64,000 nucleotides of DNA, from contig BDIU01000110.1 of assembly GCA_002118135.1 (NCBI GenBank), forward strand, positions 186,001 to 250,000, in the 5' to 3' direction. This stretch comes from Trebouxia sp. TZW2008 (Eukaryota; Chlorophyta; Trebouxiophyceae; Trebouxiales; Trebouxiaceae). The notes beneath the pieces were generated by a model that was not told the origin of the DNA, searched no databases, and saw nothing but the letters and a program-made list of their open reading frames with translations. Both the position numbers and the translations under genes were made by a program. The stretch's first letter is position 1. Each line of letters opens with the position of its first letter. This document shows positions 5,505-44,760 of this stretch, one piece after another.

Positions 5505-5883
5505 AGGGTCAAATTCAGCAGCCAACTCTTGTCCAGTCCACCTCATTCTGCATCCTCTTCTGCCTCTAGCTGCTGAATTGCGCCAGTGCTACGATGACCA
5601 TCCACATAGTTGGCGGTCATGGTCAGACTCACAATCAGGTCCATACTCAGGCTCTTCCTAATCCTCTTCTGCCTGTATTTGCTGGTCTGCGCCACTGCAC
5701 TCGCTGCTCTTCTGCCCACTGCTTCACATCTCTTAGTCGTGGTCAGATTCAGCATCGAGTCTTGACTGTAGCCCTTCTAGCCCAGCTAGCCCTTATGCAT
5801 TCTCTTCATCGATTTCTGTCGCTGTTTGCTGACCTGCACCGTCTGACCAGAGTTCTGCCTGAGCGCATTCAACTTCACAAATA
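5505..5883 (-). repeat. Tandem partial copies of the methyltransferase last exon, in its 3' flank
   Basis: Roughly three diverged copies, period about 120-140 bp, resemble the end of the last coding exon (about 5886-6010). On the plus strand each shows a GTCAGGGTCA-like or GGTCAGATTCA-like start, then a CTCTTCTGCC-like block, then GCTGGTCTGC or GCTGACCTGCACC followed by GTCTGACC. They lie just downstream of the stop codon in the methyltransferase direction, so they probably form part of its 3' UTR or flank. The copies are not in a continuous reading frame with the gene. Confidence 0.65.
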
Positions 5884-8800
5884 CTAGTCAGGGTCACTTT
5901 CAACATCCAGAGTCAGTTCGAGTCCACATTCTTCTCCAGCCAGCTCTGCTATTATTTGCTCATCTGCACCGTCTGACCGAGATTGGGCTTGAGACTGTTC
6001 AACTGCTGAAGAGACACACCCTGAGCTTGTGCAGGAGTCCATGCCAGCATGTGAAGCCTGCTGCACCTCATAGACTTGTATCGTTTGAATCTCTGGTTCT
6101 GCTGCCTTTATTTGTTGCTGTTGAGCAGACTGCTGTGTGTATGTCTGCAGCCCTTCAGCACAACTTTGACGCCAGCTCTGCAAATCAGAATGTCAAATGG
6201 GAGGAGACTTGTCGCATTTGCAAGCAAGAAGAGTGCCATTTGTGTGTCATTGTGCGAATGCCGTGCATAGAGCACTGAGCGCTACCCTGGCTTCGTGCAA
6301 AGGATGGGGTCACAAGATATTGCTGCTTGTAAAAAGTAACAACAAAGCTGCTCTGAGGCAGGATCAGGGACAGTTGCAATAACACATGTTGACATCAGAC
6401 CAGCATGCCTGCCTTGTGAGAAGTAGCTGTGCTCCGACACGGACATGCGTCATTGCATTAACACCATCTACCTTTTTAACAGCAGGGATTGAGGGCGGCA
6501 GCCACAACGGTATTTGCAAGTATAGCACAACATTTGCATGTGACAATGCACTGCTCACACATGCACTTGTACCACCAATACTTACCTTGATCACAGCAGG
6601 ATCAGGAACGGCCACCACAGCATGATTCAAATCTCCCATCGTGCCTGTACCCTCAGGGGCTGTTTCACGCGTAGCAGCCAGGGCTAGACACCGTCCTAGG
6701 GCTGATGCCACACATGGTGACACAGCATTGCCGATCTGTTGATACCTGTATACACACAGCAGTCAATGTTGCAATACACAGCTTTGGAACTTTGCACACA
6801 GCAGCGCCTGGATGATAGGAAGATATTGAACAACATTGTTTTGTCTGATTTTTGCATGTTGAACATCAACCGTCCTTATTGTGACGCTCAACCGTAAAAC
6901 CGTAAACCGCAAACAAGCCGGCCTGGCAAGATAGGACTTGGGCCACACACCTAGCACATGTGCTGGACATGGTGATCATTTGCTATTTTCATTATTGCCA
7001 ATCTGTTGATAGCTCTGCGGATAGCAGTCCATGTTGCAGCGCATGGCTTTGCGCACAGCATTGCCGATTTGCATATGGGCATGGATGACATGCTGCAAGC
7101 GGATGATGCAACTCAGGTATGCATTGACACAAACACAGCCACGACTGTCTGTCACAACCTGATGCAGTGTCTTGCAAAAGCATACCTGGCCCAAGCCTGC
7201 CATTGCAATCCTGCAGTGAAATTCATCGGATTTCATTGCCCACCACAGAAAGCGCAAAAAACCCTTAAAACCTTACAAGCTAACCAATTTCCCCAGCAGA
7301 AACAAAATTTGTATCATTTTTTAGGGGTTTTTGATCGCCCGAAATGCAATGAACTATAATGTCAGGGGCCATTGCACGGCCACAACAATTCAGGCACAGA
7401 TCAATGCAGACACAGTCAGGGGAGCGCTACACTCCACAGACTAACCCAATTTGTTGTAAACGCACACCTGACTTTGAATTTGCTGTTGCATGCTTGCTGC
7501 AACCCAGGGATTGATTGATGCTGACATACACACAAGCGTCTGACATAGGACAGTCCATCTTGCTGCTGAAGCACGCTTGGCCTTGAATGTGCTATTGCAT
7601 GCTTGCTGCAACCCAGGGAGTGATTGATGCCGACATATTCACAAGCGTCCAACATAGGACAAATAATCTTGCTGCTGAAGCATACCTTGCCTTGAGTGTG
7701 CTGTTGCATGATTCTTGCAAGCCCGGCATGGATTGATGCAGACACAGTGACAAATGCTGTTTACAGACTAATCCATCTTCTGGTGATAGCATACCTGGCT
7801 TTGAGTGTGCTGTTGCGTGAATACGCTCCAAAGCTCTCAGGCTGCTTTCCCAACCCAACCAGGGCAAAGTAGTCTGGGAAGCCCTGCACACACAATCAGA
7901 CCCTCTGCAACATTTGCTGGTGGTAATGAGTTTTCCATCAGTGCATAATCCTGCAGCTTGTTGACATCAGCTTGAACCTGATCTTGCAAATGCCGACTTT
8001 ATAAAGGAAAGTTGGGTCATCAGATGCATGCTGATGCTTGCCTTGATACTTTCTGCCAGAAATTTTGCAAAAGTTTTAGCAGGCCACCTGATCTCCATCG
8101 ACTGCAACTATTGTCTGTCTGGTATATTGAGCAATCCCTGATGCGCTTATGCATGTCTTCATGCATGAATGGCCATGTGTACAGCTTGTCGCCACCCTGT
8201 TGAGTATCAATAGTGCACGTCAGTGCAAAATTCGGATCACACCAGAGCCATGACTGAATGTGGATGGTATTATTTAGATTACTTCACCCAACTGCAGATG
8301 ATTTGACCTGTTAGCTGATATCTCAAGCCTTGTGCCAGACACCAGTAGTACCAGACGCTCTCAGGCGCAGCGAGTGACTGCAACTGCCTGGCTGTGGCAA
8401 ACAACTGCCACTGCTATTCATGACGGATCAACTGCCTCAAGACCAACAGCATGTTATGCAGGTCAAAGCATGAAACTGATTCCAGACAATTCTGCCATGC
8501 TACGTGATGCCACGGGTTGTCTATACCTGCATTCGTGCATTCTCCCGAACAGTGACCACTCTGTCTTGGTCAGGGTGTAAAAGGGATAAGCTGTGGGGCT
8601 CAGCGCGTCCAACTACCTGCAAAGCAATTGGTACAATCTGGACGCAAGCTGTTGAAAACACGCAGTGCATGATACAATCATTGTGCAAACCTCCTGGGCT
8701 GCTTCTTGACACAAAGCCTTCCGACGCCGAACAGCACATCAGCAGGTCATACGGTGAACCTTGACAACAGAATGATCCCAAAAGCAACGTCAAGGGCTGT

Positions 8801-11800
8801 CTACAGTAGACTTGAAGGAGATGAGAATTGCAAGCAGACCCTTTGCCCCGTTTGGACATCGAGTGGCAGGACTTGACCCTGCTACAACGAATTGAGCCAT
8901 ATGCTAGTTCATGTTGAAAAAGCAAAACCTGCTGAAGACAGCCTCTGCTTACTCAGGAGCCTTGACTGGTTTTGCCTCTAGCAGGCATGCAGCACATGGG
9001 TATGAGTCTCAGGTAACACTTTCCATGATGGCGAAAACATCTTGTAAACAAGTTTGCTCTGCAGATGCCAAGCAACAAGTGTGTCATTGTCAAGTGGCTG
9101 GTCTTTTGAAACGCAAAGCGTTGGAAGATTGAGACAGTCTAAAGGAACATACAAAACTTCACAGTATGCTTGGTTACCATGCAGCATAGTCCATCATGCC
9201 ATGAGCTGCCAAAGCAAGACTTGTTATTGCTGTTGCTGTTGCTGCTGTCCTAATTGTTGGCGCTTGTTGCTGCTTGCTGCTTTTGCTGCTGGTGTTGCTG
9301 CTGCTGTTGTTGCTAAAGAGCCAAATCCTTTACCGTGCAGCGCAGCTCGTCATGCCACAAACGGCCATAGCAAGCCTTATTGCCTGAGGACCTTCCTTTC
9401 CTATAGGTGAAGCAGAAGCGAGGGCAGACAGCGGCTCCAGTTGGCAACAGCACATTCTGGGAAGGGCAATCTGCGCCCGGGCACTGGGAACGGCCCTTGA
9501 GCTTAGCAGCATGGGTGTGCCCAGCACAGCAGGTGCCTGTGCAACAGTCAAGAGTCTGACAGAATCGTTGTCTCACAAGGTAGGAGGGTATCAGACGAGG
9601 CTTGCAATAGTCCTTTGCTCGGTCAGTGAAGGCAAGCAGCAGCTCCAGTTGGGAACGGCACATTCTGAGGGAGGCAATTTGGCCCAATGCATTGGGAATG
9701 GCCCTAAAGCTTGGCAGCATGGGTGTGCCCAGCACAGCAAGTGCCTTTATATATATTTTCAGCGTTTGACAGGGTTGTTGTCAGATTCGTTGTAGGAATC
9801 TTCCCATTCTGACTTTGCTGTTGATGACTACAATCGATGGGCAGCCTATCATCACTGCGAGGCACGCAAATCTTTTGCCAGCATAACATACCTGTGATGA
9901 CAGAGCTTTGCACAGGAGCCTTTAATTGCCGTCCTCTCAGCTGCACTCCAGGCCAAAGTGGTCACCATGCTCAATGACCGTTGCATGCTTTCTCGGTCAA
10001 CAGCAGTATGCAAGGGATGCTGGTAGTGACTGACCATTCTTCCAGGTACAGACGCCAGGCAAGTCATGAAACGAGGCTCCTCGCTGCTTGGGTATGAGGC
10101 ACATTCGCAGGTGGTCATCTAGGTGTGGCACCAAGCTGCGGTGATCTCTGACTGGACCTTCAGAACAATAAGCTGCCTCGACACTGGCCAAAACCTGCAT
10201 GAATCGCAGTCAAGCCAAGTGTTACAAACAATCTGGCACAGAACACGCATCAACGCTGCAGTGCTCCTTGATTGGGCCTTCAGAATGACAGGCTGCCTTG
10301 ACACTAGCCAAAAGCTGCATGCATTTTCGTGTTCTTGAGCTAGTTGAGCATTCAGGACTAGAATGGCGTTCAAGACAAGTGCAGCGTCACAGCCACAAAG
10401 GTCTTTTACCAGTTTGTCAACAGGCTAAGGGCCTCAAACATTGATGAAAGGCATCACATGTGACACAATGCCTGTTACTTGCAGAATGGTTGACAACAAC
10501 ACGCAGATAAACCTTTCAGATGCTGAAGACACTTGAATGGGCTCGCTTGTCCAAAACCCACATGATACATGGCACTGACAAGTTTCTGATGCAAAGAACA
10601 CACCTGCTTGCCTATCTCATAATGCAAAGCCTTTGTGGCAGCTAGTAACTCATCTACCCATTCCTCCACATCTTCAGGGTCACATTCCTCTCCGCACTGC
10701 TTGTGTACGGCCTGCCGTGCAGAACTTTTCATCTTCTTCTTCAGCTGGATGTTGACCTCAGCTGTGTCCATCCTCTTCCTCTTGCAGTTGCCTGCTTTGA
10801 CTGGTTGCGGACCTGGGTCATGAATGCCTCTGTGGGTGGCAAACTTCCGACCAACCTGCAGACACATATTTCAGCAACTGATATACTACTCATGCCTTGC
10901 TGAACACGCTTTGCTTTATTTTGACATGTACAGTGCCTTCTGACAGCTGACTTTTGTCACATCACTGTACAAACATTGTTTTGATACTGTAAGTTGTGAT
11001 AATGAGAACAATGCATGCTGACTGCAGTGCTTTTTTGAGTGGAACAAAGTCATAGGAACAAAGACAATTAGGACAACAAGAACCGCAAATGGCATTGTGG
11101 CAATCTCATCTGCTCAGTCCCACCCAACAGCCCGCACCATTCACACGCTTTCCTTCTTGCAGTCTGCTGACCAATCTGCATCACCCTGTCATGTTCTGCG
11201 CTATCCAACTGTCGGTGTTTGTACTATCAAGCAGTTTGCATTCAGAGTGAAAAGTGCTTACTTGCTCAGTCCTGCCCAACAGCCTGCACCCCTCACACAC
11301 TTTGCTCCTCTCAGCCTGCTGACTAATCTGCATTGCCCTATCAGCAGCTGCAGCTCTGCATGCCTGGGATGACTCATGAAAGGGCGGTGGCCGCCGTATG
11401 AAATGCTGAAAGGGGGTTTGTGGTGGGCTTTTGTAGTCCAGGCTCTCTGCAAAGCTGAAGCTGGAGACGTCTGGCAAGTCACTCAAAGCGTCCCCAATCA
11501 TTGGCTGCAACATCACAAGCACAGTCTTGGACAGAACAGAGAGGGAAAAAAAAGGATGCTAGGCAGTCTCTGCTGTTTGCTGCATGAGGTGCAAAGCTGA
11601 AGCTGTAACCTCAGGCGAGTTACTCAAAGCATCAGTGAAGTGATTAGGAAGAAGGCAACAAACCCAATGACTGGCAGAACTGGCACCAGCAATAGTGATT
11701 GCAGTTGTGTTTCAGAATAAGTAGAGGGCAAGACAAAGCAGCCCTTGAGAATACTTAATCAGGGAATCTGTACAACTACAGTAGGTCCTGTGTCAAAAGC

Positions 11801-14800
11801 CAGTGCTCCCAGAGACAGGCCAGGGCAGCCATTAGGGCATTGACATTTGTATGGGCAAAGGATCCAGATCAAGATTAGCTTTGATTGCAGTGCTTGCCGC
11901 AAACATGGAGCTGAACGCATGTCAAAGAATGCTGCAAGAATCTCCATGCAAACAGAATGTAAAGCAGCTGTGGCAGTGGCATGAAACATGTTGATATGAG
12001 TCAAGGTAATGAGAATCCCAAGCAACGCAATGCACCATGAACCCCCTCGAGCATTATTTGATGAAATGCATGTCTGGACAAATTCAAGAAGACATGGTCA
12101 TACTGCTCCAGCAGCGTTGCGCTATGTCTGAGCAAGTGATGTTGTATGACGGGCAATCTTTTAGCAGGCTTGTAGCCATCAGATGTCAGTGAAATCATCT
12201 CCCCACAATAGGAGAGTCCCCTAAAGGGAAAATCACCAATGGCAGAGCATTTCTACGGGATGTCTTGCTTGTGAAATTGACAACACAGAGATCTTGACAG
12301 AGACAGGCACTGTGTGGCGCCATTTGGTGGTTTCATCAAAAGGCTCAGGACAAGGGGCTTATATTGCATTACCATGGCAGCAAGTTGACTACAGCAGAAA
12401 TTAAAATGACAAAAGGACCGCGACAGCCTTTGAGAACTCACCACTGGCAGAGCATCACAGCGAGATGCCTCGCTGGCAAAGTCCACGACACACAGACCCT
12501 TGACAGAGACAGGCACTGTGTGGCGCCATTTGGTTGCTTCATGGGAAGGCTCAGGAAATGGGGGTAGCTGCTCAACCCCTGATCTAGCCCCCCACACAAA
12601 CATCCTGCACCGCAATCTACATTCATTGTGTTGCAGGAACAGGAACAAGAATGGAATACACAAACAAGTGTCTTCGCCTTTTGGATGTCACAACAGGAGC
12701 CTGCATGAATGAAAGCAGCCCAGGACTGTCTTGACACTTGAACAGCAAGTGTTGATAAGCAGCAACAGCATGCTGCTGCTCTGCACCTGCCAGCAAGACA
12801 TGCTGACGTGTCTTGTGCGGCACAGTGTCAGGATAGCTTGCCATGCTAGCTGGCAAATCACCTGGCTTGAGGCACTCGCTGGTCACATGCTTCCATAATG
12901 CCTCACAGCCAGTTGTTGTCTCAGCCAAAGCAGTGAATAAAATGAGCACATTGTTGTGGGTGACACATCACTGACCTGTGTCTAGCTTGAGACACACCCT
13001 AATCACAGGCTTCAATTATGCCCATGCACCTTTGCTGATAACCTCAACACAACGACATATTTGATGTCTGTGCTAATACATCACAGCAACAGCACCAAGA
13101 GCAGATGACATAAGATGGCACATCTCAAGCTGACACATTGCTCGCTAGTACACGGCCTGCTACGTATAAGTAATGTTGTATACAATTAGGATATACAAGC
13201 ATGGGACAGACTGAAATAGTGTGACCAGTGGGTCAACTGACCTGTTTCTGGCTTGAGGCACTCCCTGGTCACAGGCTCCAATGATTCCCATGCGCACTTG
13301 ATAGTTCAGCTGAAGCAGCGAGCCCATGGCACTTTTGGCGTACATGCCGTCCTCCTTTATAAGAGAGTCCACGACATTCTCCATCAGTACGAAGCCTGGC
13401 TTGAACCAGTCAACCACATCATAGAAAGCCTCCAGCTGCCGGTTCCTGCAACCAGGGAGTCACCAGATGTATCACTGTAGCATGCAACAAGCAATGCACA
13501 GCAGTCGAGTGTTTGATAGCATGGGTCACTGAAAGTGTATTTTGCAACTTGCCACACAGTAGCTTCAATGCATCAGACGCAGTATGCAAGTATGTCAGAG
13601 TATCCAGCACTGAAGTGAAGGGTACGTTGATTTACTGCCTGCTGTGTGTGATTCAGGACAGAATGCCTGAAACACGTGCACACAATAAGTTTGGGACAGT
13701 TGCTCAAAGCTCTGCTGTTGGAACACAATGACAACAACAATTGAGTCCGCGCAACAGGACAACATGCAGCAGCGCGTGAATGGTGCAGCGTCATACAGCG
13801 TTGCACGGTGCATGCGGCGAAGGAATGGAGCAACTCGACAGTTCGCTTGCGTTGGCACAAAATGGCTCTGGACAGAAAACAATGGAGCAGTTCATTGCTT
13901 CTGTATGCACCTAGCTGGGTGATGGAACCTTGCTAGAGGCTTGTCAATGATGACTTTGATGCAGCCAATGTGGCCTCCTGTGACCAACACAATGGAGTGG
14001 ATGAGTGCTGCATGCTAACCTGGAGTCATCTCTGATGTCAACACGCAACGCATGCCGATTGTGGCCTGACAGTCCCTGGCACGGTGGCCCTCCCATTACA
14101 ATGTCTATGTCCCCTGCAATGCGCACAGCCAGGTTACCTCACCTTGCTTGATACTGCTGTCTTCTGCCAGATGCAATCAAAGGATATTTGTGCAATCAAA
14201 CATCCTTTGATTGCACACTGAAATCACACATCAAGTGACTCAACATGTTTGCAACTTGGGTAGCGACCTGTTACAGGTCTACCTAGAATCAACATCATGT
14301 TACCTTACAATACAGTCTGCATACTGAACTAGCCAGAACCACTGCAAGCAGCCAAATGCAAGTCACCTGGATAGAATGCAACAGCTGGAGGGCTGTGAAG
14401 CTCAGCTCACCTGATGCCCTATTTAGCAAGCTGCATGCAACCAACACACATGCATCTCATTGCAGCTGGTAGCGTCATCAGACCAATTGGGTCCCTTTTC
14501 TCTCCTGGATTAGCCTAGCTTGCCTTGCATGATTGCAGTCAGAGGTTAGCAGCAGGACAGCTGGAATAGCACCTGGGAAGGGAACACGCTTTTGTTGCCG
14601 CACGCTCTTGACAAAGTCAAAGAGCAGCTCATCACAGTTCAGTTTGTCTTCATCTTCCCAGGTTGTGCCGTCAGGATGATCACGATCTGCCCAGTTCTGC
14701 CACTTGACCTTGAACTGCAACCGGCAGTTGTTCTGCCTCAGGCCTTCGAGCAGATTGCCCTTGTCCTGCCCTGCATCATGCACTGTCCCGATGTAACCAA

Positions 14801-17800
14801 GATGGCAATGATGACAACAAGAAGAAGAGTATAAAGGTGGTAACCCTCAGGGCATCTAGCAGATTGCCCTTGCCCTGCCCTGAACTACGCAGCCCTCACT
14901 TGACTCTGCTGCTGGTGACAAGGAGCAGAAATGCACAACTGAAGTGCCTTCACATTTGCTCAAATGACTTGCCTCTTGCTGCATACGCTGATGAAGTGAT
15001 GCGACTGCAGCAGGCAGCTGCACTCAATGGCACAATGTGAGCGTATTTTAAAACATTTAGCACTTTGATTTGATTTGACTTGACTTTGTGATAGTCAGCT
15101 ACAGTACAGTCTTTATGGCCTTACATTGGGTCTCTAGTTTGAATGATGTCCTGTGGACCCCCTGTGGGGTCTCTGAAAGGACGCAACAGGGGGCCAGTAC
15201 GCAGTGAACAATGGCTGTCAACAGCACAGTCGGTTCTGACTACTACTGGGACAGGTGTCACGACAAAAGAGCCCAAAATTGGGCAGCATATCTGAATGTA
15301 CACTCAAGCAAGCCTTTCTGATAAGTAAGCAGATCTGGGACATTACCAGAAGTGCCGCGCTCGGCGGAGTCAGTGATCCGTACGTTTTCTATCGCCTCCA
15401 CATCCCAAGCCTCCTCCTCTTCTGCTTCTTCATCCCCATCATAACGCTCAGCATGCCTGTTGCCTCTGCTGCTTTTTGCCTGTGATGATGAGCCCTGTTC
15501 TGCTCTGCTTCTGCTGCGTTTCCCCGGTGAAGATGTGCCCTGTTGTGTTGTGCTTGCAACAGGCCTTGTGAGCTTGCTGCTGTCTGATGCTGCTGGGATT
15601 CCCTGCCTATCTTGAGCTTGGCTGCCTGCAACAGCAGCCGCTTTGTTTGCAATCCAAATGTATAAGTGCTGAAATACAGCTCAAAGCATGATGCAACAGC
15701 CTGTTGTGTTGTGTTTGCAGCAGTCCTTGTGTTTGCAGCAGGCCCTGCTGTCTGATGCTGCTGGGATTTGCTGTCTATCTTGAGCCTGGCTGTCTGCAGC
15801 AGCAGCTGAAATTGAAAAACTCGGCCAATCAAGCACAGGGCCTGACGTCTCAGCCTGTCCAAGGGTTCCTATTGTTGCAGGTGATATTCTGAGCAGGCCA
15901 GATTTGAAATTGTTTAACAGGAAAATTTCTGCTACGGAGCACGCAGCCAGAAGTAATTATCATATGAGTATAGATTGATTACACATTTCAGCACATGTGC
16001 TAGGTGTGTGTGGCCCAAATCCTATCTCGCCAGGCTGATTTGTTTGAGCATCACAGTGAGGACGTAATAGAGCAAGGATGATCTGTGTCACTACATGTGG
16101 TGTACAGTTGTACTTCAGTGCAGTGACAGCAGCATTACTGTGTGTCAAGTTTGTTGATTGGGCCAACAACAGGCTTTGGCTTTTGTGGGTGTGAGACCAA
16201 CCTTGTGGGGCCAGCAACTTTTGTCTGTTCATGCTGTCTCAAGCAGAAAGCAGAGCACCAGCAAAGAAAGGAGCCATGTACACGTCTTGTGTTTCAGACA
16301 GCTATACAAGTGGCTTTGCATATTGCAAGCCAACAGCGTTGTCTGTTCTTCAAGCTTTGCATCTTTGTCATATTGTGACAACAGCATGTGACAACAGCAT
16401 GTGACAACAGCATGTGACGACAGCATATGACAACAGCATGTGACAACAGCATGTGACGACAGCATATGACGACAGCATGCGACGACAGCATGCGACGACA
16501 GCATGCGACAACAGCATGTGACAACAGCATGTGACAACAGCATGTGACGACAGCATGTGACGACAGCATGTGACAACAGCATGTGACAGCAGCATGTGAC
16601 AACAGCATGTGACAACAGCATGTGACAACAGCATGTGACAACAGCATGTGACAACAGCATGGATTGACTCACCCTCATCAGGAGCCCAAGTATCAGGAAA
16701 GCGGTCAGATAGCTTCTTGAGCTTGATGCACAGCATCAACCATTCATCCACTCCCATGCAGTTCACCTGCAACCAAAATGTGCCGAGGTTGGTCATAGTC
16801 AGTGCTGTGCTCCCATGCAGTTGACCTGCGACCAACATGTGCCAACCTTTGTCAAAATCATTGCTATGCTAACTTGGTCATCATAACAATCGCTTTGCTA
16901 CCTTGTTCCCAGTGTGCTCAACAAGCATAGCTTTGCTTACAAGTGTAGTGCAGCAAGGCGCATCATTACTCCCATGTGGTTGACCTGCAACCAAAGAGTG
17001 CCGAGGTTGATCAGAACGACTGCTACGCTCCCATGCAGTTGACATGCAACCAAAATGTGTCAAGCTTGGTCTAATAATTGTTACGCCAAGTTTTCCTGGG
17101 TGTGCCCAACAACTGGAGCTTTGCTTGCAAATGTGGTGCAGCAAGATGCATAAGCCATTGACTGAATCTGTTGCAGATGATCTGCAGATAACATACGTCA
17201 ACTTTGCTAGGACAAAAATTGTTGTGCTGTACAACCCCTAGAGTGAAAGTGAGAAAAGCCTTTGCTTGACAATTGCTACACAGAGGCGCAACCACACTGC
17301 TCAGCTCAAGGCATAGGCAATCGCAAATGATTTTCTGCAAGCTGCGATTCGCTATCAGTACTGCAAAGATGTGTCAAAGCTTTGAGTCTGGATGATGTAT
17401 AGCAAATTGTATTGCAAATAGTGTTTTGTCTGACTTCCAAAAGTTGAATATCAGACGTCCCTACAAAGACGCTCAAGACAAGCTTGCCTGGCGAGACACA
17501 CACCTGGCACATGTGCTGGAATGTATAATTTCACTATTGATTATCGATGTCAAGTCAACTGCTGGAGGTGTCACTGTCTACAGTGACAGAGCTTCAATGG
17601 CAACTCACTGCAGCATCTGGGTAGTTGACACGGAAACTGCAGCATGCAGACTCCTCATTGTCCACTGCCCAATGCGTGTTGATGTGAACTCTGTCAGTCT
17701 TGTGGTCCACGAAAGACATGCCTCCACAGCCGCAGTAGAGGTCCACTGCATTGAGTACCTACAGAAGTAAAGGCAAAGCTGTTAAACGCTGCAATGCGTC

Positions 17801-20329: not shown

Positions 20330-20769
20330 TACACTTATCGCAGCACGGTCTGATACATTGCTACATCACGGCTTTAGCGGCAGCCTTCTTGATGAAAGGC
20401 AAAGCCGTTTTCGTCATTGCCGCTTGGGGCAAAGCGTTTTGCTGCTTCACTCGGGAGCTCGGTCAACCCGGCTTGGCGAGCATGCTGTGCTGCGACCTCC
20501 TCGTTCACATTTCAGCATAATACAGTCAGTTCCTCTGACAGAGCTCAGGTTCTGTTGCAGACGTCTGTGATTAATGCGTTGCGCAAGCGCATTGGTGCCT
20601 GCATCTGCTGTGCAGAGAAGTGCGCAGGTCGATCTCGGGAACGCACTTTGAGCATCGAAGCTAACAAGCTCTTGATGTCTGGCTTGGCTGCGCTCGTCTT
20701 AGCTGTAGCCTAAGCTAACAGAGCTGAACCCTTTTTAACAGCAAGCGCGGCAATCAGTTTACGCCTGCC
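20330..20769. promoter_or_regulatory. Shared upstream region of two divergent genes
   Basis: The methyltransferase (minus, start 20329) and the coiled-coil gene (plus, start 20770) diverge from this 440-bp stretch, so it should contain both promoters and 5' UTRs. I see no TATA-like box or other motif that I can defend. The base composition is more GC-rich than in the introns on either side. Confidence 0.45.
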
Positions 20770-26347: not shown

Positions 26348-26952
26348 CTCTCTGCACTGACTTGCAAGTCGCATGTCTGATATTCAGCTGGTGTTTGATG
26401 TTGATGCAGCAAAAGACAACATTGTTGCAGTATGCATATCATGTGGCACAACAATTGGCAATTGCAGGTGACGTGGCAGAAATCGTTCTGTGTAATGCCC
26501 TTACTATGCTGCTGTTTAGGCAACATGCTGACATCCAGAGCGATTCGCTTCTTGCACATTTTGTCACCATGCGCCTCATTCGTTGTGTCATAGAGGAGAG
26601 AGGGGTTTGCAAAATCAGGCCAGCCTGGTTAGGCTACTCAGTTGTGCTGAGGCAGCATGTACTCTCAAAAATGTAGGACTGAGACATTGTGACAAGCGCT
26701 GCAAGATGAAAACCTTTGAAAGCGTTGGTTCCGGAGCCGTTTACCGGCCACGACTTGGCCTCACAAATCGGCTGCAGCGAAATATTCTGCTAACATCCGT
26801 CTACAAGCGTCATCATCGACTTGTACTGTTGCTGCGTGTGAATCAGGCGAACGATCTTGACGTTGGCTGACTTTGCCAGGACTGCCAAGTCACCTGTTAT
26901 TATAGACTGAACAAACCACAATACCTTCGTGCCGCGCTGACGGCTTATTGTC
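26348..26952. other. Intergenic region between coiled-coil and ABCF genes
   Basis: About 600 bp between two plus-strand genes. The first half should be 3' UTR of the upstream gene (TGTAA at about 26491). The second half, richer in CG dinucleotides, should be the promoter and 5' UTR of the ABCF gene. No coding exon is recognised. Confidence 0.4.
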
Positions 26953-28497
26953 ATGGCGATCTGTCCTCACACATGTCCAACAGGATCCTCCACGCTGCTG
27001 AGTAGACAATCGATTCCTCAGCGTTTTCGCTCAAACAACACTGGTTACAGACAGCAGTTGCATTCCAGACCAACCGCTCAGTCGCTCGATAGCTTTGGGA
27101 GGAAGAGGGCGTCCATCAGCCATCGCGGGTTGATTGCACAGGCGCAGCGCCCCTGCATCTCGTGCGCAGCTGCTACGGCAGAGGCTCCTGAAAGCACTGT
27201 AAAGCTTGAAAGCGTACCAAGAGGGGAGACAGACGGTGCCAACCTGGTCTTGGAGAATGTGACAATACAGGCTGGACATCGTGATCTTCTTCAGGTCAGA
27301 CTGGATGCGTCTACTATGTTGGTGTTGTGTTGATATTGTGGCATTGCTGGCAAGTTCAGTTGCTCATAGCTTTTGCTGCATGCATTGCAAACAGTATTGG
27401 CAACCTGCACAGTGGTGGCGGCTTCTTCAGGTGCATGAGCTGCAACCATCGTTGCAGCAAAAGCGCCAAACTCAGCATTGCTCTGCTGTGACTCAGGATG
27501 TCTCATGGCGCCTCATGCCAGGCAAAAGAGTTGGATTGGTTGGCGCAAACGGCTGCGGCAAGTCTACACTTCTGAAGTGCCTTTCAGGCCACAGGTTGGT
27601 AGACAAGGGCACATTGACTGTCGACAAACAAGTTGAGTTGGGCTACTTGGAGCAGACTGCCGTCTCTGGATCAGAAAGGACTGTTTGGGAAGAGGTCAGG
27701 TCCCGTATGACTCAGCTGATTGAAGCTGAAGCAGCCATTGCTGCTGCATCTGATTCCTTGCAAACTGCAGGTATGATCATCAGACACTGCCTCATGATAC
27801 ACTGATGCATTTTGTTGCTTTTGCTCTTGCCAAGTAAAACATGCTGTCATTAGGGCTCTGGCATCAATGATCACATAGCAACATTGCACAAAGTTGACAT
27901 GATATCTGACTTCATCTGAAGGATCGTGTATGTAGTGCTGAGGTGTCAAAGCATGTGTTGAATTGTACAGCGGCTCAGTCATGCACTCAGTGGCCATGTA
28001 TGTGATGCTCTTTCAAGCAACAACCCTGCACAATAGGCTACGCCACAACTACTGCAGATCACTGTGTCATATACACATGCAACTTGACTCAATTGCCAAT
28101 CTCAAGTCTTCAACTGCCCATCAAAGAAAATTTGCAAGCCATACTTTGAAGTTTGATATGGACATGCTTGTCATTTTAGCTGGTCACACCTTCCTCTGTC
28201 CTCATCAGCTTTGTCCAAATCTAAAGAGCCCTGCCAAGGGACATGAGTACAAGATCCGCTATAACTCAGGCATAGTGTGCTGATGCCGCTTCTTTTGGCT
28301 CAGGTAAAAAAAGCCATGCAGCAGCTCTACAGAGGGCCATGGATCAGTTTGAGGCAGCAGGCGGGTACGACGCTGACAAACGCATCGCCATTGTGCTGAC
28401 TGGCTTGGGCTTCAAGCAGGAGCAGTGGAACAAGACCTGCAATGAGTTCAGTGGAGGATGGCAGGCATGTTCTGCCCTTCTGCCCTTCTTGCTGCTG

Positions 28498-28554
<57 letters not shown>

Positions 28555-31500
28555 GATTACTGTGGTCATTCTTGTGCAGTCTTATTGCATGATGGTTGAC
28601 AGAGTGATGGAGCATGCAGATGCACATTGCTTTGTCCTGGCAGCAGCTGGGCCTGGCAGAGCAGGCTGCCTGTTCCCTCTGCGACTTGATGTCACTGCAC
28701 ATAAACTGCAACATACTCTGTGCCAGTTTGTGATTGCTGATTCAATCGTGGATGCATGCAGATGCGCATTGCCTTGGCTCGGTTGCTGCTGGGCCCCGCA
28801 GGGCAGGCTGCCAGCAGTGGGGGCCAGGGGGGGCTGCTGCTGCTGGATGAGCCCACCAATCACCTTGACCAGTACGCTCTCAACCCTGGCTTCTTGCAAA
28901 CGACGGCAGTCTGTCTTCTGAAGCAAACAAAGGCAGTCTATCTTCTCACTAAGAAAGGAAACTGCAAGAAGTGTGTGGTCTGTTGTCTTGGCTACATGTT
29001 CTGTTGCCAGCTGTAAGGGGAAGGGGTGTTGCTGGTCCTTGTTGAGCCCACTAATCACCCTGACCAGTATGCTCCAAACCTGATGTTGTGCCTTCTGTTG
29101 TATCATACTGGCTGAATGGCTCACTTGTATGTGTTGTCTTTGTGTGATTGAGTCTGCCAGCAGTAAGCGAAAGGGGTGTTGCTGCTCCTTGTTGAGCCCA
29201 CTAATCACCTTGACCAGTATGCTCCAGACCTGGTGTTGTGTCCTCGGATACATCATGTTGGCTGAATGGCTCATGGATTCTTTTTGCTTTGTGCGCTCAA
29301 GTCTGCCAGCAGTAAGGGAAAGGGATGTTGCAGCTCCTTGTTGAGCCCACTAATCACCTTGACCAGTATGCTCGAAGTTACTGCTTCACTTCTTGTCACA
29401 ACCTCTCAGCAACAGAGTTTCCATGTGGCACAGTAATAATGTGCTGCTGCAGTCTGCAGCAAACACTGAGACATGCGTCCATATGCTTGAGTGCCTTGAT
29501 GTATAGGGCATTCAAGCTGCAAGTCAAGCAGACTCGTGAAAGCCTGAAGTCTTAACCTGTTTCTGACAGCTGTTGTGGCGGCCAAGTGCCCATGCTAGAT
29601 TTGATGCAAACTTTCTGCGAGTCCATATGACGGGTCTTGTGTCTACACATCAGCCAGCCTTGAAGCGCAGCTACAACAACTTTCCAATGCTCTTGCGGAG
29701 AAAGTTCAAAGAAGTGTCAAATTTGACATGGGCCACCCGCCCGCTCTAATGCGTGCACAGTTGCTCAGTGTTTAGTCAGCAGATGACCAGTAATCTTATA
29801 CATAATCAGTGGCTTTGCGCAAGGCAACATCCACTCCTGACCAGAAGATGTTGGTCTATGCAGTGCAGAGAATGCAATACATCTGAGATGTTGATCTCAT
29901 AAAATATGCCTGTGCAGTGCAGATTGTGCAGTGCAGCATTCTGTTCTGCTCTCTGTCTGTGCAGTGCAGCATGCAAGTGGCTTGGTTCAGCCCTATGCAA
30001 CTCCTCAGGCGGAGTAATCATTCTCTTGCGTGACGAAGACCTGCTTCAAGATGCCTGTGACCAGATACTCAAATTCTGATCACATGGTTTCTGTTTGTGC
30101 AGTGCGGCGTGCAAGTGGCTGGGGTCATTCCTTCGCAACTCCTCAGGTGGAGTCATCATTGTGTCCCATGACAAAGACCTCCTTCAAGATGCATGTGACC
30201 AGATTGTTGAAGTACGTGGGCGTCAACTACACCTTTACGCTGGGGATTACAACCTGTTCCTGGAGCAGCGCGAGCTCCGAAGCCAACAGGCTGCATCCAT
30301 GGCACTGACACAGGTGGACTTCATTTGTGCCTTGTCCCTCCTGAGTGAATTGATAATGACAATGGATTACAGATTCTAGCTTGCATTGCTAGGTTTGTAC
30401 GGGACAAGTCCTGTCTCGCTAGGCTTGTCTTGCGCATCAGTGTCGTCTTTGTGCATAATTGCAGTCTGTCTCTGACACAGCTTACGCCAGCAGCAAATTG
30501 TGCACAAGGTCTTGTCTGCCTTGTATCTCCTATTTGAATGGTTCGAACAGCTTGTGACAGACTTGAATGGCAAAAGTAGGTCGCGCCTGTTTATGCCTAG
30601 TTGCTGGCTTGCAAAGCCTGCCCAGCAAGCGCGCTTACTTGCTTTATTTACTGCCTCCCTCTCTCAAATACTACTCGCTCACCCACTCACTTACTCATTG
30701 ACTCGGATTACAGGGGAAGAAGATTGCACAGCTGGAAGATTTCGTTGCTAGATTTGGCGCTGGCACAAAAGCGTCACAGGCTCAGTCGAGGGCTAAGCAA
30801 TTGGAGAAGATGAAGAGCAGTATTTCAGTTGCACCTGCCCCTGCCTCAGGGGCTGGCCCTGGGGACGCCAAAAAAGTGAGTGCAGTGCAATTTCGAAACC
30901 ATCCCATTATGCAATTACTATGCTTGTCGGTAATGCCTTCCTTTTGGATTTTGCATAGACATCGTCAGATGCAGCTGACCTGCATGCTGTGTGACCACAT
31001 CTTAGTTTGCAAGGACCATAGTTTTGCAAGTCAGCGTCTTCCCCCTTCATAGCGACTGCTTTGGTCACCAAAACGATTCTCCTTACACCAGTTTGCCTTA
31101 ATCAGAAATCCTGCTGCAGTCAAAATGCAGTGATTGGTTCCCACTTGCCTTGTTCCTGCGTCAAGAGTGCCCTAGTATTGAGTGTCCCCAGAAAAGGAAA
31201 TTACTGTACGACAGAGTCAAAGAGCACTATAAACAAAATTATCACTTTCCAAAGACCATTTTTGGAATGGTGCAGGTGAGGCTATACCTGCCAAAGGCTC
31301 CGGCGTGTGACCAGCTTGTCCTCAGGATGGAGGTTAGCCTCTTCTTCTCTTACTGCACTGCTCAAGCTGCATTTGCTTGCTGTTGGGGAAAGTCGCTTGC
31401 TTGCTGCCAGACCTGCAAGGACAAGTGCTTGCTGCTACAGCTGCTGTCATGAGTCAGATGGTTCTTCGCTGCTGAGCTGACCTGATCAATAATGCACTGT

Positions 31501-34500
31501 TGCTGGCATGATTAAGTTGCTGCAACCCTTTGCTGTAAGGGTGACACTTGCTTGCTTGCTGTAAGACCTGCTGTCATCATACAGACAGCTGCTTGCTGCT
31601 GAACTGCCTTGGTTAGACAATGCACTGTTGCTTGGATGATAAACTTGCTGCACCTCTGTGTTGCTCTAGTGACACTTGCTTGCTTGCTGTAAGACCTGCT
31701 GTCATGATACAGACAGCTGCTTGCTGCTGAATTGCCTTGCGTCGACAATGCACTGTTGCTTGCTTGACAAACTTGCGGCATTCCCTTGCTATCAGAGAGA
31801 CACACTTGCTTGCTGCAACACCTGCTGTCAGCATACAGATGGTTGCTTGAGCTGAAGTCAGCGCATCAGAGTTGCACAAACCGTCAATGGATCAAGCGGT
31901 GGATGCATTGACGTTGACTGCACGCATGCTCAACTACTTATTCAAATGGTTTTGATGGTGCACAAGGCTAAAACATTGAATTTGCTGTTGCAGAAAGCGT
32001 CAGTGGGGTGGGGGGCCCCAGGACAGGGTAAGGAGCCCCTGTTGCAGGGGGTTGATTTCATGGTGTCAAGAGGCCATCGTATCCTGGTGCTAGGAGCAAA
32101 TGGGGCAGGCAAAACAACCCTCCTCAAAGTTCTGGCAGGTCAGTCCTGCCCTTATGTCACAGCTAGTTGCCTTTTTGCCTGATACATACTTAGCTATCAT
32201 GCTAACTTTGCCTAGTATAGTGCTTCACTGTTTCCACCCTTGCAGACTGACAAATGTGTTCTCTACAGGGTTGTAGTCAAGGTGTACAGCTGCTTTATGT
32301 TTGACAGTCAACAGCGGCTGTCAACAGTCCTGTGTATCAATCTGCTTGCTGGTGTCATGTTTGCTCACCAGTAATTTAAGGTTGTTGGAGTGTGAGCAGG
32401 TAAATTTATTTGACAGCGTTGACGCCTCGGGGTAGGCATAGCCTCACTACTGCCATGTGCATCAAGATTTCCGGGCATGCTTGACGCATTTCCTGCACAG
32501 TCATTATCTGGGAGTGTTCATTTGTGAGGGCAAATGTCACTTACTTCATGAATTATGTGCTCGTGAGAGTCTGGTCTGTGTAAGTTACCGATAAACGCCC
32601 GTCTACTGTTTTGCAGGTTCTGTGAAGACTTGGGCAGGCAAGAGGAAGCTAGGGGAGAATGTCAAGATATCTGTCTTCTCTCAAGATCTGGCCCAAGTAA
32701 GTTGGTTCCTGCATCATTGAACACTTGTAAGGCACAATATGAATGTTGCAGCAACACAGGAACTTAAGTGTTCAAGACTGTTGCATTGCTGTGGCTCTGG
32801 CTCTTGATGGCAGACATCATTTTGTCCTTCCAGAATTGTTTTCAGTCTTGACTCTAGACATTCATTGTCTGCCCTTCAAAGATGGCATGCAATGTCTCTC
32901 TACCCAATATCAGCTGTGCTTGTGTAACTTTTTGCTGTTGGTTCTCAGGATGTGTCAATAGATCAGGGAGCTTTGTATTCTGTACTAGGGTAGGCTAGAA
33001 AAGGCGCATCATCTCCTGTGTTTTGCCAGCTGCAAATTGGATTCCAGGCCCTAAGCTGCTTGTGCTGAAGTGTTTTGCTTTTGGTTCTCAGGATTTGCCA
33101 ATGGACCAGCGAGCTTTGGACTATGTTCTGGAGAAGGCTAGGGAAGATGATATCTTTACCACAGAAGAGCAGGGGCGCAAGTCTCTGGGAGCCCTAGGGC
33201 TGACTGGTGAAATGGTCAAGGCCAGAATAGGTATGTGCCTTCAGCTTTTTCAGCAAGACTAAGATAGGCAGGTGCCCCTATCAACAGAACTTGCCATCAG
33301 TCATCAGACACTTGAACTCGTTTACTCCGACCAAACTGTACTTTTTAGTTTAAAAGTGCACGCAATGTGCTCTTGTATGACTTTATTCTGTTTTCTCTGC
33401 AATGTTGATATTTGATGCAGGCTTGTTTTGGCAGTTGCAAATGGTCTCTAGCAGACGCTCAGCTTACTTGAGTGGGGGCAGGAAGGCCCAAGGCTTCTGG
33501 CAGCCTTCTATTGGATTTCACCCATGCTTTGCGCTATAGCAGGTTTCATTCCAATGAATCCCACCTGCAGCCATATCTTGGTTGACTGATGCCGACACAC
33601 CTTTCATAACGGCAAACAAACACGATCTCGAGCAATGTTCTAGGTGACTTGAGTGGAGGTGAAAAGGCCAGAGAGGGGCTAGCAGCCTTTGCATTAGTGC
33701 CCTGCAGCCTGCTGCTACTGAATTAAGCTAGCAACCACTCATGACTTGCCACATGTTAGTAGACAAGCTGCAAATGACTGTGTTTCAGGTGACTTGAGTG
33801 GTGGTGAGAAGGCCAGAGTGGCGTTGGCAGCCTTTGCACTGGTTCCCTGCAACCTGCTACTCTTGGACGAGGCCAGCAATCACCTGGATGCTGCAACAAT
33901 CAACGCCCTCACCCTAGCACTGCAGGCAAGTCACTCTCCCTGGGCGCTATCACTGTTACTGTCACCGCCATCATCATCACTATCACTGTCACTCTTGCCT
34001 TGCAAGCACCTCACGGCCATTGCTGCTGCCACATTCATTGTCACTGTCACTTTCACTGAGAATTTTGTAAGCTCACTGGTCTTGTCAAATTACAACTCAC
34101 CAGGCGCCATTGTGCCCTTCACATTGTGCATGACTGTGTTATGAAGCAGCTATAGCGTTTGAATTGTCTGCTGTGCAAGCAGGTGTTTGACATTACCATT
34201 GTGTTCTTCAACCACGCTTGGAATGCAGAACTGCTATGTCTCATGTTGTGCTTGCTGTGCAAGCATAATTTTGGGGCTGCCACTCAGACCTATATCACAG
34301 CACAGCTACGGACCTCATGTCTTGTTGGCTCGCAGTTGTTTTGTTATGCATGCAGGTGTTTGAGGGTGCCATCGTGGCAATCACTCACAACAAAGCCTTT
34401 GCTGAGAGCTTGCTTGCCACTCACGTGCTCAGAGTTGAGGTGAGTTCAGCACATTTCGCTGCTTTGTGCTGTGTCAACTTGACCTCAGGATCCACTGCAT

Positions 34501-35941
34501 GTACCAAGTCGACAGTCAATGACCTGCATGGCTCCACGTTAGCTCAAACTAGAAGTCAACATTGCATCAGCAAGCATAGATTCAGAACGTTGAGCATCCG
34601 AGTGAAAGTGTGTATGCTTTTGCAAGATGAGACAACAGCTGCACTCACAAGCATGGATCATGACGGCTGCCTGTGTCTGAGTATCGTGTGTGCATTATAG
34701 GGTGGACGACAGGACAACAGCTGCACCGATAAGTCTGGGTCATCAAGACCTCCTATGTTTGAGTAATTATGTGTGCACCACAGGGTGGGACAACAGACAT
34801 AGCGCCCCTGTTCACTTCGCTGGAAGACAGTGACTTCACCTATGATGACACCAAAGAGGAAGAGCAAAAGGAAAAGCAGGCCAAGCAGTCCTCAGCCAAA
34901 CAGGTGAGACTTGCAAAAGCAGCAGAAATGACATTCTGTAAATGCATTTATTTGGCATGACAACATTGTCCGCTTTACAATGTACATCGTTGTTGCAAAG
35001 CTCAGAAGTAAGAGGCGTGGCAAACCAGCACCGGGCTGATATACATCTGGCATCCTCGGCGGAATGTGCAGGCATGATTACTGATTCAGTGAGAACCAGT
35101 CTTCTTAGAGGCAGTCAAGATTTTTTGAGAAGCTGCACACCAACACTGTTGAGTGTGTTGGCTTCATTCTGCCTTGAATTTGGTGTCTGAACATGCAGGA
35201 TAAGGAAGAGCCCAGCGCTACATCCCAGACTGCAGCTAAAAGCCCTCCTGTCCAAACCGCAAGCCCTGCCCCTGTCAAGAAGAAGACTAAACTGAAGCTT
35301 GGCTACAGGTGAGTTGGCTGCGATCTTGAGCATTTGGTCAGGCACCTGTACAGCGTCTGTCTTTGTGCCTGTCTGTCTGCCTGCCTACACGCCTGTCTCG
35401 CTGTATGTCTGTCTGGCTGTCTGTCAATTTGCATCTCTGTGTGTGCTTTGGAGATGTCCCCAAGCAGGTGTATTAATTCGAGACCAGGGCTACAAGATAC
35501 ACAAGTCAGATGTGCCATCCAGAATCGTGTGTGGTGGTATTCAGTGTCATGCTATTGCAAGCCTGCTTGGTGGTTGCAAGGCACAGCAATGCTCGTGGCC
35601 AGGGTGATTGATCGCACAAGCTCCCTATGCAATTCACTGTTGACTTTGAGCCTGCTCAGACTGACACACATCTAGCCTAAGATGTGCTACACCAGGTTGC
35701 CTGTGTCTCAAGACATGTTCAATGCAGGGAAAAAGATGAACTGAAACGGCTGCCTGCTGAAATTGATGCTTTGACAGCCAAAAAGGCCAAGATAGAGCAG
35801 ATGCTGGAATCATCACATCATCAAACCGACACCAATCACCAAAAGGTTGATGAGGCGTGGATTTTGTTGGCCAAGGTGGTTGATGAAATTGATGTCAAAA
35901 CTGAAAGGTGGCTTGAGCTTGAGGATTTAGCAGAGCAGTAG
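26953..35941 (+). CDS. ABCF: ABC-F family ATPase with two nucleotide-binding domains and a probable organelle-targeting N-terminus, 15 exons
   Basis: Exons: 26953-27294, 27497-27770, 28304-28464, 28762-28871, 30103-30313, 30714-30875, 31276-31332, 31994-32138, 32617-32696, 33092-33230, 33789-33925, 34356-34439, 34784-34903, 35199-35308, 35728-35941; 2346 nt, 781 aa. ABC-F proteins lack membrane domains and act on ribosomes as translation factors. Residues 1-75 are rich in Ser, Arg and Gln without acids, like a plastid transit peptide. NBD1: Walker A GANGCGKST, signature FSGGWQMRIALARLL, Walker B LLLLDEPTNHLD, switch His in IIVSHDKDLL. The linker KIAQLEDFVARFGAGTK matches the ABC-F interdomain motif. 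NBD2: GANGAGKTT, LSGGEKARVALAAFAL, LLLLDEASNHLD, AITHNKAFAE. A charged coiled-coil tail (about 711-781) resembles Uup/ABCF5-type C-termini. Introns 3 and 11 use GC donors (GCATGT, GCAAGT). Many introns contain duplicated exon edges. Confidence 0.92.
28498..28554 (+). repeat. (TGC)19 microsatellite in ABCF intron 3
   Basis: An uninterrupted run of 19 TGC triplets starts 33 nt after the GC splice donor at 28465. On the minus strand it would read as polyglutamine, polyserine or polyalanine, but it is intronic in the model. Confidence 0.95.
28608..28680 (+). repeat. Duplicate of ABCF exon 4 acceptor and start
   Basis: GCATGCAGATGCACATTGCT with CAGCAGCTGGGCCTGGCAGA repeats the true junction GCATGCAGATGCGCATTGCC with TTGCTGCTGGGCCCCGCAGG at 28754. 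The copy preserves the AG acceptor and loses the frame after some 50 bp. Confidence 0.8.
29020..29380 (+). repeat. Three further copies of ABCF exon 4 end (Walker B plus donor), period about 150 bp
   Basis: After the real Walker B exon (to 28871) the downstream intron holds three copies of CTTGTTGAGCCCACTAATCA followed by CCTTGACCAGTATGCT or a near variant, at about 29038, 29188 and 29337. Each translates partly as a LLVEPTNHLDQYA-like peptide. The catalytic Asp-Glu pair is changed to Val-Glu in all three. Each keeps a GTATGC donor where the real exon has GTACGC. Sequence between the copies is also repeated, indicating tandem duplication. Confidence 0.92.
29970..30068 (+). repeat. Duplicate of ABCF exon 5 start (switch-histidine exon)
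   Basis: TGCAACTCCTCAGGCGGAGT and GACCTGCTTCAAGATGCCTG repeat CGCAACTCCTCAGGTGGAGT and GACCTCCTTCAAGATGCATG of the true exon about 125 bp downstream. In the copy, TCCCATGAC (switch His) has become TTGCGTGAC, so the catalytic residue is lost. Confidence 0.88.
30385..30465 (+). repeat. Dispersed intronic element, copy d
   Basis: GCTAGGTTTGTACGGGACAA, GTCCTGTCTCGCTAGGCTTG and CATCAGTGTCGTC place this with the other copies. It lies in ABCF intron 5, on the gene's own strand. Confidence 0.55.
31394..31860 (+). repeat. Tandem repeat, about 127-150 bp unit, four copies, in ABCF intron 7
   Basis: Blocks ACTTGCTTGCTTGCTGTAAG with ACCTGCTGTCAT, CAGACAGCTGCTTGCTGCTG and GACAATGCACTGTTGCTTG recur at about 31394, 31546, 31673 and 31804. 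The unit bears no clear relation to an exon. The intron is otherwise unremarkable. Confidence 0.85.
32914..32990 (+). repeat. Duplicate of ABCF exon 10 acceptor and start
   Basis: TGTTGGTTCTCAGGATGTGT with CAATAGATCAGGGAGCTTTG repeats TTTTGGTTCTCAGGATTTGC with CAATGGACCAGCGAGCTTTG at 33079. The acceptor TCTCAG is intact in the copy. An in-frame stop (TAG) replaces the codon for Met-Asp. Confidence 0.85.
33450..33725 (+). repeat. Two duplicates of ABCF exon 11 start (ABC signature exon)
   Basis: The copy at 33645-33717 has GGTGACTTGAGTGGAGGTGA and GCCTTTGCATTAGTGCCCTG, against the true GGTGACTTGAGTGGTGGTGA and GCCTTTGCACTGGTTCCCTG. It still encodes an LSGGEKAR-like peptide but breaks before Walker B, where CTGAATTAAG introduces a stop. 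An older copy at about 33468-33520 begins TACTTGAGTGGGGGCAGGAA. Both lie upstream of the true exon. Confidence 0.88.
34180..34245 (+). repeat. Duplicate of ABCF exon 12 acceptor and start
   Basis: GCAGGTGTTTGACATTACCA with TTGTGTTC and CACGCTTGG parallels GCAGGTGTTTGAGGGTGCCA with TCGTGGCA and CACAACAAA at 34352. The acceptor is retained. The frame diverges within 40 bp. Confidence 0.7.
34620..34745 (+). repeat. Two duplicates of ABCF exon 13 acceptor and start
   Basis: A block of about 80 bp ending in a GTGTGTGCA(T/C)-(T/C)A(T/C)AGGGTGG acceptor and ACAACAG exon start appears near 34690 and again at the true exon (34784). A third partial block starts near 34625 (GAGACAACAGCTGCACTCAC). Intervening CATCAAGACC-like sequence is repeated as well. 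Confidence 0.7.
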
Positions 35942-36261
35942 TGAGTGTCATTTGTAGTCCTTTTGCATGCTCTGAAGTCTGTCCAGATATTGGTTGTCCT
36001 GCTGGTGAAGTTCCCGTCTGCAGCTCATTTACTGCACAAAGATCAGATACAACTTAGTAAGCTGAGGTCTACTCATACTTTGCTATACAATGTAGTATGT
36101 GGTGTTAGCACAGGTAAGGAAGGCGAGGTTTGATTGCACAAGACTCGAGCATTCTGTGTCTACAAGCTCAGGGAAGCATGAATTACATGGCACTGCACTG
36201 ACAATCAACTATCAGGAAACTCTGCTTGACTTGGGGGTTCACCTTGACCAGACGTGCTGGT
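35942..36261. other. Convergent 3' region between the ABCF and F-box genes
   Basis: The plus-strand ABCF gene ends at 35941 and the minus-strand F-box gene ends at 36262. The 320 bp between should be the two 3' UTRs. No feature is recognised. Confidence 0.5.
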
Positions 36262-44587: not shown

Positions 44588-44760
44588 GTTTTACACAGGG
44601 CACGAAGCTGTCTACAGGTCAACTGCAAATGCTCCGCTGCATCTAAACCTAAACGATATCATCAAGTGTCACTCGCGCTTCTTTCATTGGCTGGTACTGG
44701 AATGCGTGTGAAGCATGCACGCAAGTGCAACGTACCAATAGTCACCGGCAAGACTGACGA

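Follow-up and report, generated by a model that had tools for sequence, protein, structure and literature searches.

A tandem duplicate across an intron-exon boundary made an intron in the potato RdRp gene (PMC4974935), and internal gene duplication was described by Gao and Lynch 2009, as cited in PMC4974935 and in the intron-gain review PMC3443670. The repair-mediated proximal duplications of vertebrates are local, with a median of 147 bp, and include exons and splice sites (PMC2671141). In rice, break-repair insertions (Vaughn and Bennetzen 2014, as described in PMC7407515) comprise tandem, partly tandem and non-tandem duplications of nearby DNA, 10-1000 bp in length. We compare these systems with a window of 64,000 nucleotides from the green alga Trebouxia sp. 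TZW2008, in which exons of four genes, namely DGAT2, a chromomethylase (CMT), a coiled-coil gene and an ABCF-type ABC protein gene, are accompanied by decayed copies of their own edges, here called relics. The window comprises bases 186001-250000 of contig C107 (BDIU01000110.1) in a 68.5-Mb assembly of 527 contigs (GCA_002118135.1), and positions are counted from its first base.

Local duplication of a known kind, but unusually dense, has lengthened the introns. Generic head-to-tail duplication of local DNA across the genome is the probable origin of the relics; those at exon edges would have become intron and would owe their visibility to selection on the exon. This explanation builds on what is observed of the pairs, namely their genome-wide spread, direct orientation, local range, unit size and geometry, and on an ordinary substitution spectrum.

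The window was compared with itself for local repeat pairs at a strict (E<=1e-3) and a looser (E<=1e-2) setting. The strict setting gave 33 local direct pairs and no inverted pair between 1 and 35 kb, in 19 clusters with offsets of 59-495 bp. At the looser setting the whole window held 33 local direct pairs, which all fall between 2773 and 34796, plus 3 local inverted pairs. Dinucleotide shuffles served as control sequences, and shuffled window sequence gave no pair (six 10-kb tiles; one shuffle of 1-35 kb at E<=10). At the level of BLAST, 17 of the 44 modelled exons in the four genes have an edge copy outside the exon, and weaker edge copies score above shuffles (33 versus 21 at edge 9334; 30 versus 28 at edge 34356), which agrees with the at least eighteen exons counted in the initial annotation. 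By the hand-made gene models, one copy lies on exactly one exon edge and the other is non-exonic in 16 of the 19 clusters, against 4.5 in 1000 random placements (p=0.001). The copies are thus junction-spanning and repeated, as first described.

The genome was sampled in 16 arbitrary 10-kb stretches, taken at fixed places on arbitrary contig numbers with no random draw. Local direct pairs occur in 15 of the 16 and inverted ones in 2 (3 high-scoring segment pairs); shuffles of the same stretches gave pairs in 0/16. The 52 clusters amount to one per 3.1 kb and have a median offset of 146.5 bp. The identity of the best pair is 75-90% in 42 clusters, 70-75% in 8 and 90-95% in 2. Among the 17 sequences compared, 39 matches between stretches were found, and these are overlapped by 2/71 clusters and by 0/49 edge events. 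The copies match their own neighbour and are not members of a dispersed family.

A further sample was formed by loci around ABC-domain exons, of which 24 were found and 16 were used for exon-edge counts. L018 was dropped as plastid-like, L029 because it lies within the window, and L033, L034, L036, L039, L040 and L041 because they overlap or adjoin others. L018 (contig C17) resembles a repeat-rich plastid contig: its GC content is 0.42, it carries an ABC ATPase frame, and within 3.4 kb it has 22 inverted repeat pairs. Exons outside the window were labelled by a purpose-written spliced exon-chain finder trained on the window genes. On held-out window genes it recovered 13/13 and 19/21 exons, with settings chosen in view of these tests, and at the final settings it predicted 14.8 exons per 10 kb of real sequence versus 0.5 in shuffled sequence. 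Codon usage alone was rejected as an exon label, having no power; its positive control within the window failed.

With these labels, the class with one copy on exactly one exon edge and the other non-exonic comprises 27 of the 52 clusters in the arbitrary stretches, versus 11.4 in random placement (maximum 21 in 1000; p=0.001), and 17 of 26 at the ABC loci, versus 5.2 (p=0.001). No predicted exon is touched by 13 of the 52 clusters, and predicted exons are touched in both copies by 9. The excess over chance on which the initial annotation depended is present both in the pairs, found in 15/16 stretches and 0/16 shuffles, and in the edge class (p=0.001).

From these samples, 67 events were selected to carry a copy of one exon edge, with the relic required to be non-exonic. 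Acceptor copies lie upstream in 38/39 and donor copies downstream in 28/28, the arrangement already reported for the window; this geometry (66/67) is partly built in by the selection, which allowed copies in the far-side intron and met one. The dinucleotide AG is kept in 32/39 relic acceptors, and GT is kept in 19/28 relic donors with GC in 5 more, the DGAT2 row at 2863 being uninformative. The retention of splice dinucleotides in many copies, as originally noted, therefore stands at 56/67 with GC donors included. The exon share of the unit ranges from 0.07 to 0.84 with a median of 0.45 (59 events); it departs from a uniform distribution over 0-1 (p=0.002) and is compatible with one over 0.05-0.85 (p=0.28). 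So broad a range indicates that splice sites are not fixed breakpoints. Beside the junction, identity is 0.822 on the exon side versus 0.625 on the intron side (46 events with at least 40 bp of exon).

The genes and copies of the window are listed here with percent identity and offset in bp.

2608..2864, plus strand: DGAT2 exon, real copy (Pfam PF03982; GT follows 2864)
2925..3023, plus strand: relic of the DGAT2 exon end, 79% to 2773-2871, offset 152
5500..5874, minus strand: decayed copies of the CMT C-terminus and stop codon in the 3' flank, from local alignments
5884..20329, minus strand: CMT gene, 21 exons modelled by hand, from Pfam and structure matches
6994..7051, minus strand: relic of acceptor and exon start (real edge 6745), 75%, offset 267; its cluster overlaps a dispersed repeat
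7436..7711, minus strand: 109-bp array, relics of exon end and donor (real edge 7795), from self-comparison
9625..9746, minus strand: relic of acceptor and exon start, AG lost (real edge 9470), 81%, offset 208
10247..10324, minus strand: relic of acceptor and exon start (real edge 10194), 79%, offset 119
11111..11191, minus strand: relic of exon end, donor GT changed to AT (real edge 11262), 81%, offset 152
11590..11633, minus strand: relic of exon interior near the acceptor (real 11448-11492), 84%, offset 142
12230..12357, minus strand: relic of exon end and donor (real edge 12442), 80%, offset 205
12862..13027, minus strand: two relics of exon end and donor (real edge 13242), 84-85%, offsets 266 and 386
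14845..14882, minus strand: relic of acceptor and exon start (real edge 14770), 89%, offset 109
15700..15806, minus strand: relic of acceptor and exon start (real edge 15625), 83%, offset 161
16968..17151, minus strand: relics of acceptor and exon start (real edge 16766), 79-89%, offsets 218 and 277
24521..24627, plus strand: near-complete tandem unit, acceptor and coiled-coil exon start (real edge 24666), 88%, offset 110, 107 bp aligned
26953..34903, plus strand: ABCF-type ABC protein gene, 13 exons modelled by hand, from Pfam PF00005 and PF12848
28608..28670, plus strand: relic of acceptor and exon start (real edge 28762), 81%, offset 141
29005..29373, plus strand: three relics of the end and donor of exon 28762-28871 in an array of about 150 bp, 79-80% to the exon and 86-90% mutually
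29938..30066, plus strand: near-complete tandem unit, acceptor and exon start (real edge 30103), 81%, offset 135, 129-132 bp aligned
31426..31856, plus strand: 127-bp array within an intron, no exon part, 75-79%
32930..32998, plus strand: relic of acceptor and exon start (real edge 33092), 81%, offset 143
33636..33738, plus strand: relic of acceptor and exon start (real edge 33789), 80%, offset 145; recovered by protein search too, with 3 internal stops
34631..34712, plus strand: relic of the acceptor region (real edge 34784), 75%, offset 82

The reading frame of the ABCF-type gene is unbroken across its 13 exons, and the CMT model has one unsolved phase break, between exons 5 and 6. The CMT protein matches Pfam PF00145, and its chromodomain scores 24.6 bits, just under the cut-off of 25.1. 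Its best structure matches (9mvy, 7ubu and 4fsx/4ft2/4ft4) are named DNA (cytosine-5)-methyltransferase 1; 4fsx we take to be maize ZMET2. DGAT2 and the coiled-coil gene were modelled in part and are less sure than CMT and ABCF. The DGAT2 part lies at about 1041-3933, with its Pfam PF03982 match at C107:188605-188874, and in the edge counts its exon end was entered 1-2 bases off, at 2863 or 2866. The range of 5505-34745 originally given for the phenomenon leaves DGAT2 outside. Most copies do span a splice junction, as was claimed of all of them; exceptions include the purely intronic array at 31426-31856 and the copies of the CMT 3' end, which carry the stop codon. Two of the latter score 39 and 36 versus a maximum of 25 in 200 shuffles, and two further ones score 22, within the range of the shuffles.

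Two ABCF introns, at 28464 and 33925, apparently start with GC rather than GT. A 13-bp minisatellite of 22 copies with 94% matches occupies 16374-16661 and starts about 11 bp past the donor of the CMT exon 16673-16766. Among the first 15 of the 39 matches between sequences, dispersed repeats at 66-80% identity, distinct from the local duplications, were seen in L005, L008, L010, L016, L017 and the window (13844-13937 and 31114-31209). Contig C73:131817-132422 has two adjacent kinase-domain matches that both start at model position 118, possibly an exon and its relic; it belongs to a set covered by exon positions alone, which does not enter the counts.

The geometry can be pictured as follows. 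Local head-to-tail duplication of units mostly of 60-300 bp, with a median of about 147, would have been active across the genome, with error-prone break repair or slippage as its likely source. A unit inside an exon would alter the protein and mostly be lost, and a unit inside an intron would be silent. A unit over exactly one splice junction could also be silent, provided that splicing continued at the site beside the intact exon body; the other copy of the edge would then turn into intron and the mRNA would stay intact. Continued use of the site beside the exon body would leave acceptor relics upstream and donor relics downstream. Since the relic would drift while selection holds the exon, exon-relic pairs should outlast equally old intron-intron pairs as recognisable repeats. 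The relic splice sites are presumably unspliced, the process is probably slow at present, and the outcome would be intron growth through internal tandem duplication. The initial annotation had proposed intron growth, and the copies do lengthen introns, with pairs in 15/16 arbitrary stretches. A uniform duplication model places 34% of units across one junction and 56% within introns, which leaves 10% for other places. Non-exonic copies are alike in kind, as seen in 13/52 clusters, in the intronic array at 31426-31856 and at the stop-codon end of CMT. Given these copies and the broad exon share, the distinct junction mode that had been proposed is not shown.

Probes from the window gave same-strand local matches with a score of at least 40 for 17/82 junction probes, 37/148 intron probes and 2/23 mid-exon probes, where the intron probes include the relics themselves; the similar rates of junction and intron probes may reflect intron probes that landed on relics. 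Same-strand local matches were found for 0/68 probes from 36-63 kb. Inverted matches numbered 0 for junction, intron and mid-exon probes and 1 for those from 36-63 kb. The right part of the window was set apart in the self-comparison as well.

36000..64000, no strand: stretch nearly free of local duplications; direct pairs number 0 at E<=1 and a single one at E<=10

The corresponding numbers for 1-35 kb are 46 and 49. The block that is duplication-free at E<=1 extends from 36000 to about 67.8 kb (L042), the next pair lying at L042:3828; it has 29 predicted exons and introns of up to 1.6 kb. This near-clean block of 28 kb is a loose end for the duplication explanation.

Changes from exon to relic comprise 140 transitions and 95 transversions and affect all four bases, A least (relics of one exon counted separately). 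Repeat-induced point mutation, which changes nearly only C:G to T:A, is rejected on this ratio, and a diversity-generating retroelement, which changes template adenines only, on the spread over all four bases. From the per-base change rates, drift would keep about 70% of acceptors and about 68% of donors. Gaps occur in 37/66 events, and of 81 gap runs, end effects counted in, 67 have a length that is not a multiple of three. The three relics of one ABCF exon, a single family, differ from each other at ancestral codon positions without a third-position bias.

Young copies are missing. Arrays with a period of 50-400 bp and at least 95% identity number 0/43 in the 16 stretches, 16 ABC loci and window together; one 64-bp sub-pair at 95% lies in ABC locus L032. 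Short-period arrays at 95% or more number 13/52, so that assembly collapse is not an obvious reason for the missing young copies. The duplication process seems to have slowed, as if ended.

Whether the units were joined head to tail or inserted nearby was examined at the intron flanks. Past the splice consensus the flanks are related in 39/67 events (p<0.05 versus other flanks), as expected of tandem units. Units are near complete at 24521, 29938 and 34631, and many others have an unexplained gap. Among the 30 best-preserved events, 13 have at most 12 bp of intron in common, and in most the similarity ends 11-122 bp short of the unit length.

Several results weigh against generic tandem duplication as a full account. 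Intron flanks seem unrelated (p>0.5) in 15/67 events, although the exon parts of some of these are 82-95% identical, a combination not expected of plain tandem units; capture of nearby DNA in break repair would fit this minority. Comparison of exon with relic gives a dN/dS of 0.28 (0.23-0.34) versus 0.39-0.44 for a freely drifting relic (66 edge events, window and loci), and the relics hold 8 stops versus 16-25 in simulations. Strictly neutral relics are weakened as a candidate by this excess of synonymous difference and the few stops. The single-age detection model that best fits the identities beside the junction expects 1.0-1.4 non-exonic clusters per exon-edge cluster, whereas the observed ratios are 13:30 in the arbitrary stretches and 3:18 at the ABC loci, so that an edge excess of 2-3 fold or larger is left over. 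Older model settings (d 0.22), with a poorer fit to the identities, expect about 0.5 and the excess vanishes. Clusters with an identity of at least 83% keep the edge bias (11/18 versus 6.1, p=0.016). All exon labels outside the window, moreover, depend on a gene finder of our own making whose settings were tuned in sight of its tests. Selection and visibility account for part of the edge bias. The idea that edges dominate solely through faster decay of intron pairs is weakened by the detection models, in which an excess remains at the best-fitting settings, so that edges may truly be preferred by a factor of 2-3 or above. The edge excess, the missing young copies, the excess synonymous difference and the near-clean block are the loose ends of the duplication explanation.

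Several rival explanations were weighed. Exon edges might be preferred targets by way of splicing or transcription, for example through R-loops, breaks at splice sites or repair templated by nascent RNA. The size of the one-edge class (27/52 versus 11.4), its excess beyond the detection model, its persistence at identities of 83% and more and the short shared intron in 13/30 events all point this way, but the exon share varies from 0.07 to 0.84, non-exonic clusters and the stop-codon end are copied likewise, and junction probes match local copies no oftener than intron probes, so that we regard targeting as unlikely. Equally doubtful is a now quiet, genome-wide wave of duplications of about 150 bp, truly concentrated at edges and possibly derived from diverged homologous templates, which would have built a large share of the introns, with blocks like that at 36-64 kb either untouched or later entrants. 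Nearby DNA may instead have been captured in repair by synthesis-dependent strand annealing, with copies inserted near the template and not strictly head to tail. The 11-122 bp unaccounted for in most of the best-preserved events and the unrelated flanks in 15/67 argue for such capture, as do the published proximal repair duplications, with their median of 147 bp and their splice sites (PMC2671141). It is nevertheless rather improbable, since inverted copies are nearly absent and relics on the wrong side number only 1/39 for acceptors and 0/28 for donors, though insertions into the far intron should also be silent.

The relics may also have been different at birth, either because they were once coding, as alternative or duplicated exons, or because they were copied from a diverged homologous chromosome. 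This would suit the excess synonymous difference and few stops, the best pairs of all 52 clusters lying at 95% or below, the 0/43 arrays at 95% or more and the minority of unrelated flanks. Against it stand the gaps, mostly of lengths that are not multiples of three, the differences among relics without third-position bias in the one family, and the lack of a close second ABCF locus in the assembly. In the search made for ABCF, other contigs reach 29-67% at the protein level, and a diverged second locus as a present source of copies was rejected. We hold a difference at birth to be quite unlikely. The initial annotation had also offered a splicing buffer of decoy sites, in which case selection would maintain the relics. 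The splice dinucleotides kept in 56/67 events would be in its favour, yet this retention is about what drift predicts, and neither the stop-codon copies nor the intron-only ones play a part in splicing; a buffer is very unlikely. An artefact of assembly is scarcely credible, as the copies differ by 10-30% through ordinary substitutions, the assembly retained short-period arrays of 193 bp (95%) and 288 bp (94%), and neither the 16 stretches nor the six window tiles contain an N.

Under generic local duplication, this genome would offer a countable process of intron growth, with datable relics beside about one exon in seven (34/237 predicted exons in the arbitrary stretches). One genome would suffice to measure how fast duplication occurs, how selection acts on the choice of splice site and how unused splice sites decay. 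Gene predictors may take the relics for exons.

The initial annotation did not recognise the phenomenon from the literature. Local duplications crossing exon boundaries are in print (PMC4974935, PMC2671141); exon-edge relics at this density in one genome were not found in a search at listing level of mainly openly readable papers. One likeness is to internal tandem duplication, as the copies are direct, adjacent and in the same gene, and the copy beside the exon body keeps the frame. As in the work of Gao and Lynch 2009, as cited, short duplications within genes supply intron sequence; the density here, set beside internal gene duplication, is about one detectable cluster per 3 kb. With repair-mediated proximal duplications the copies share a donor within 5 kb and a length near 150 bp, and they largely lack the occurrence in either orientation. 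The vertebrate set (PMC2671141) excluded copies within 50 bp of the template and includes at least one inverted example, whereas the copies here are nearly always direct. The rice account, in the part of PMC7407515 available, makes no mention of exon-edge relics. A genome-wide gain of intron sequence is shared with introners (PMC9860276). Introners are copied to many genes; here the copy matches its neighbour and not other stretches, and related copies in many unlinked genes were not found across the 17 sequences compared. Mutually exclusive tandem exons would be whole exons with both splice sites and an open frame; here the 67 events carry one edge by selection, the relics hold gaps and stops, and 9/52 clusters touch predicted exons in both copies. 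As in the potato RdRp gene (PMC4974935), part of a boundary-crossing duplicate turns into intron. The potato case is one recent duplication that made a new intron, whereas the duplications in Trebouxia number dozens, are old and mostly lengthen introns that already existed.

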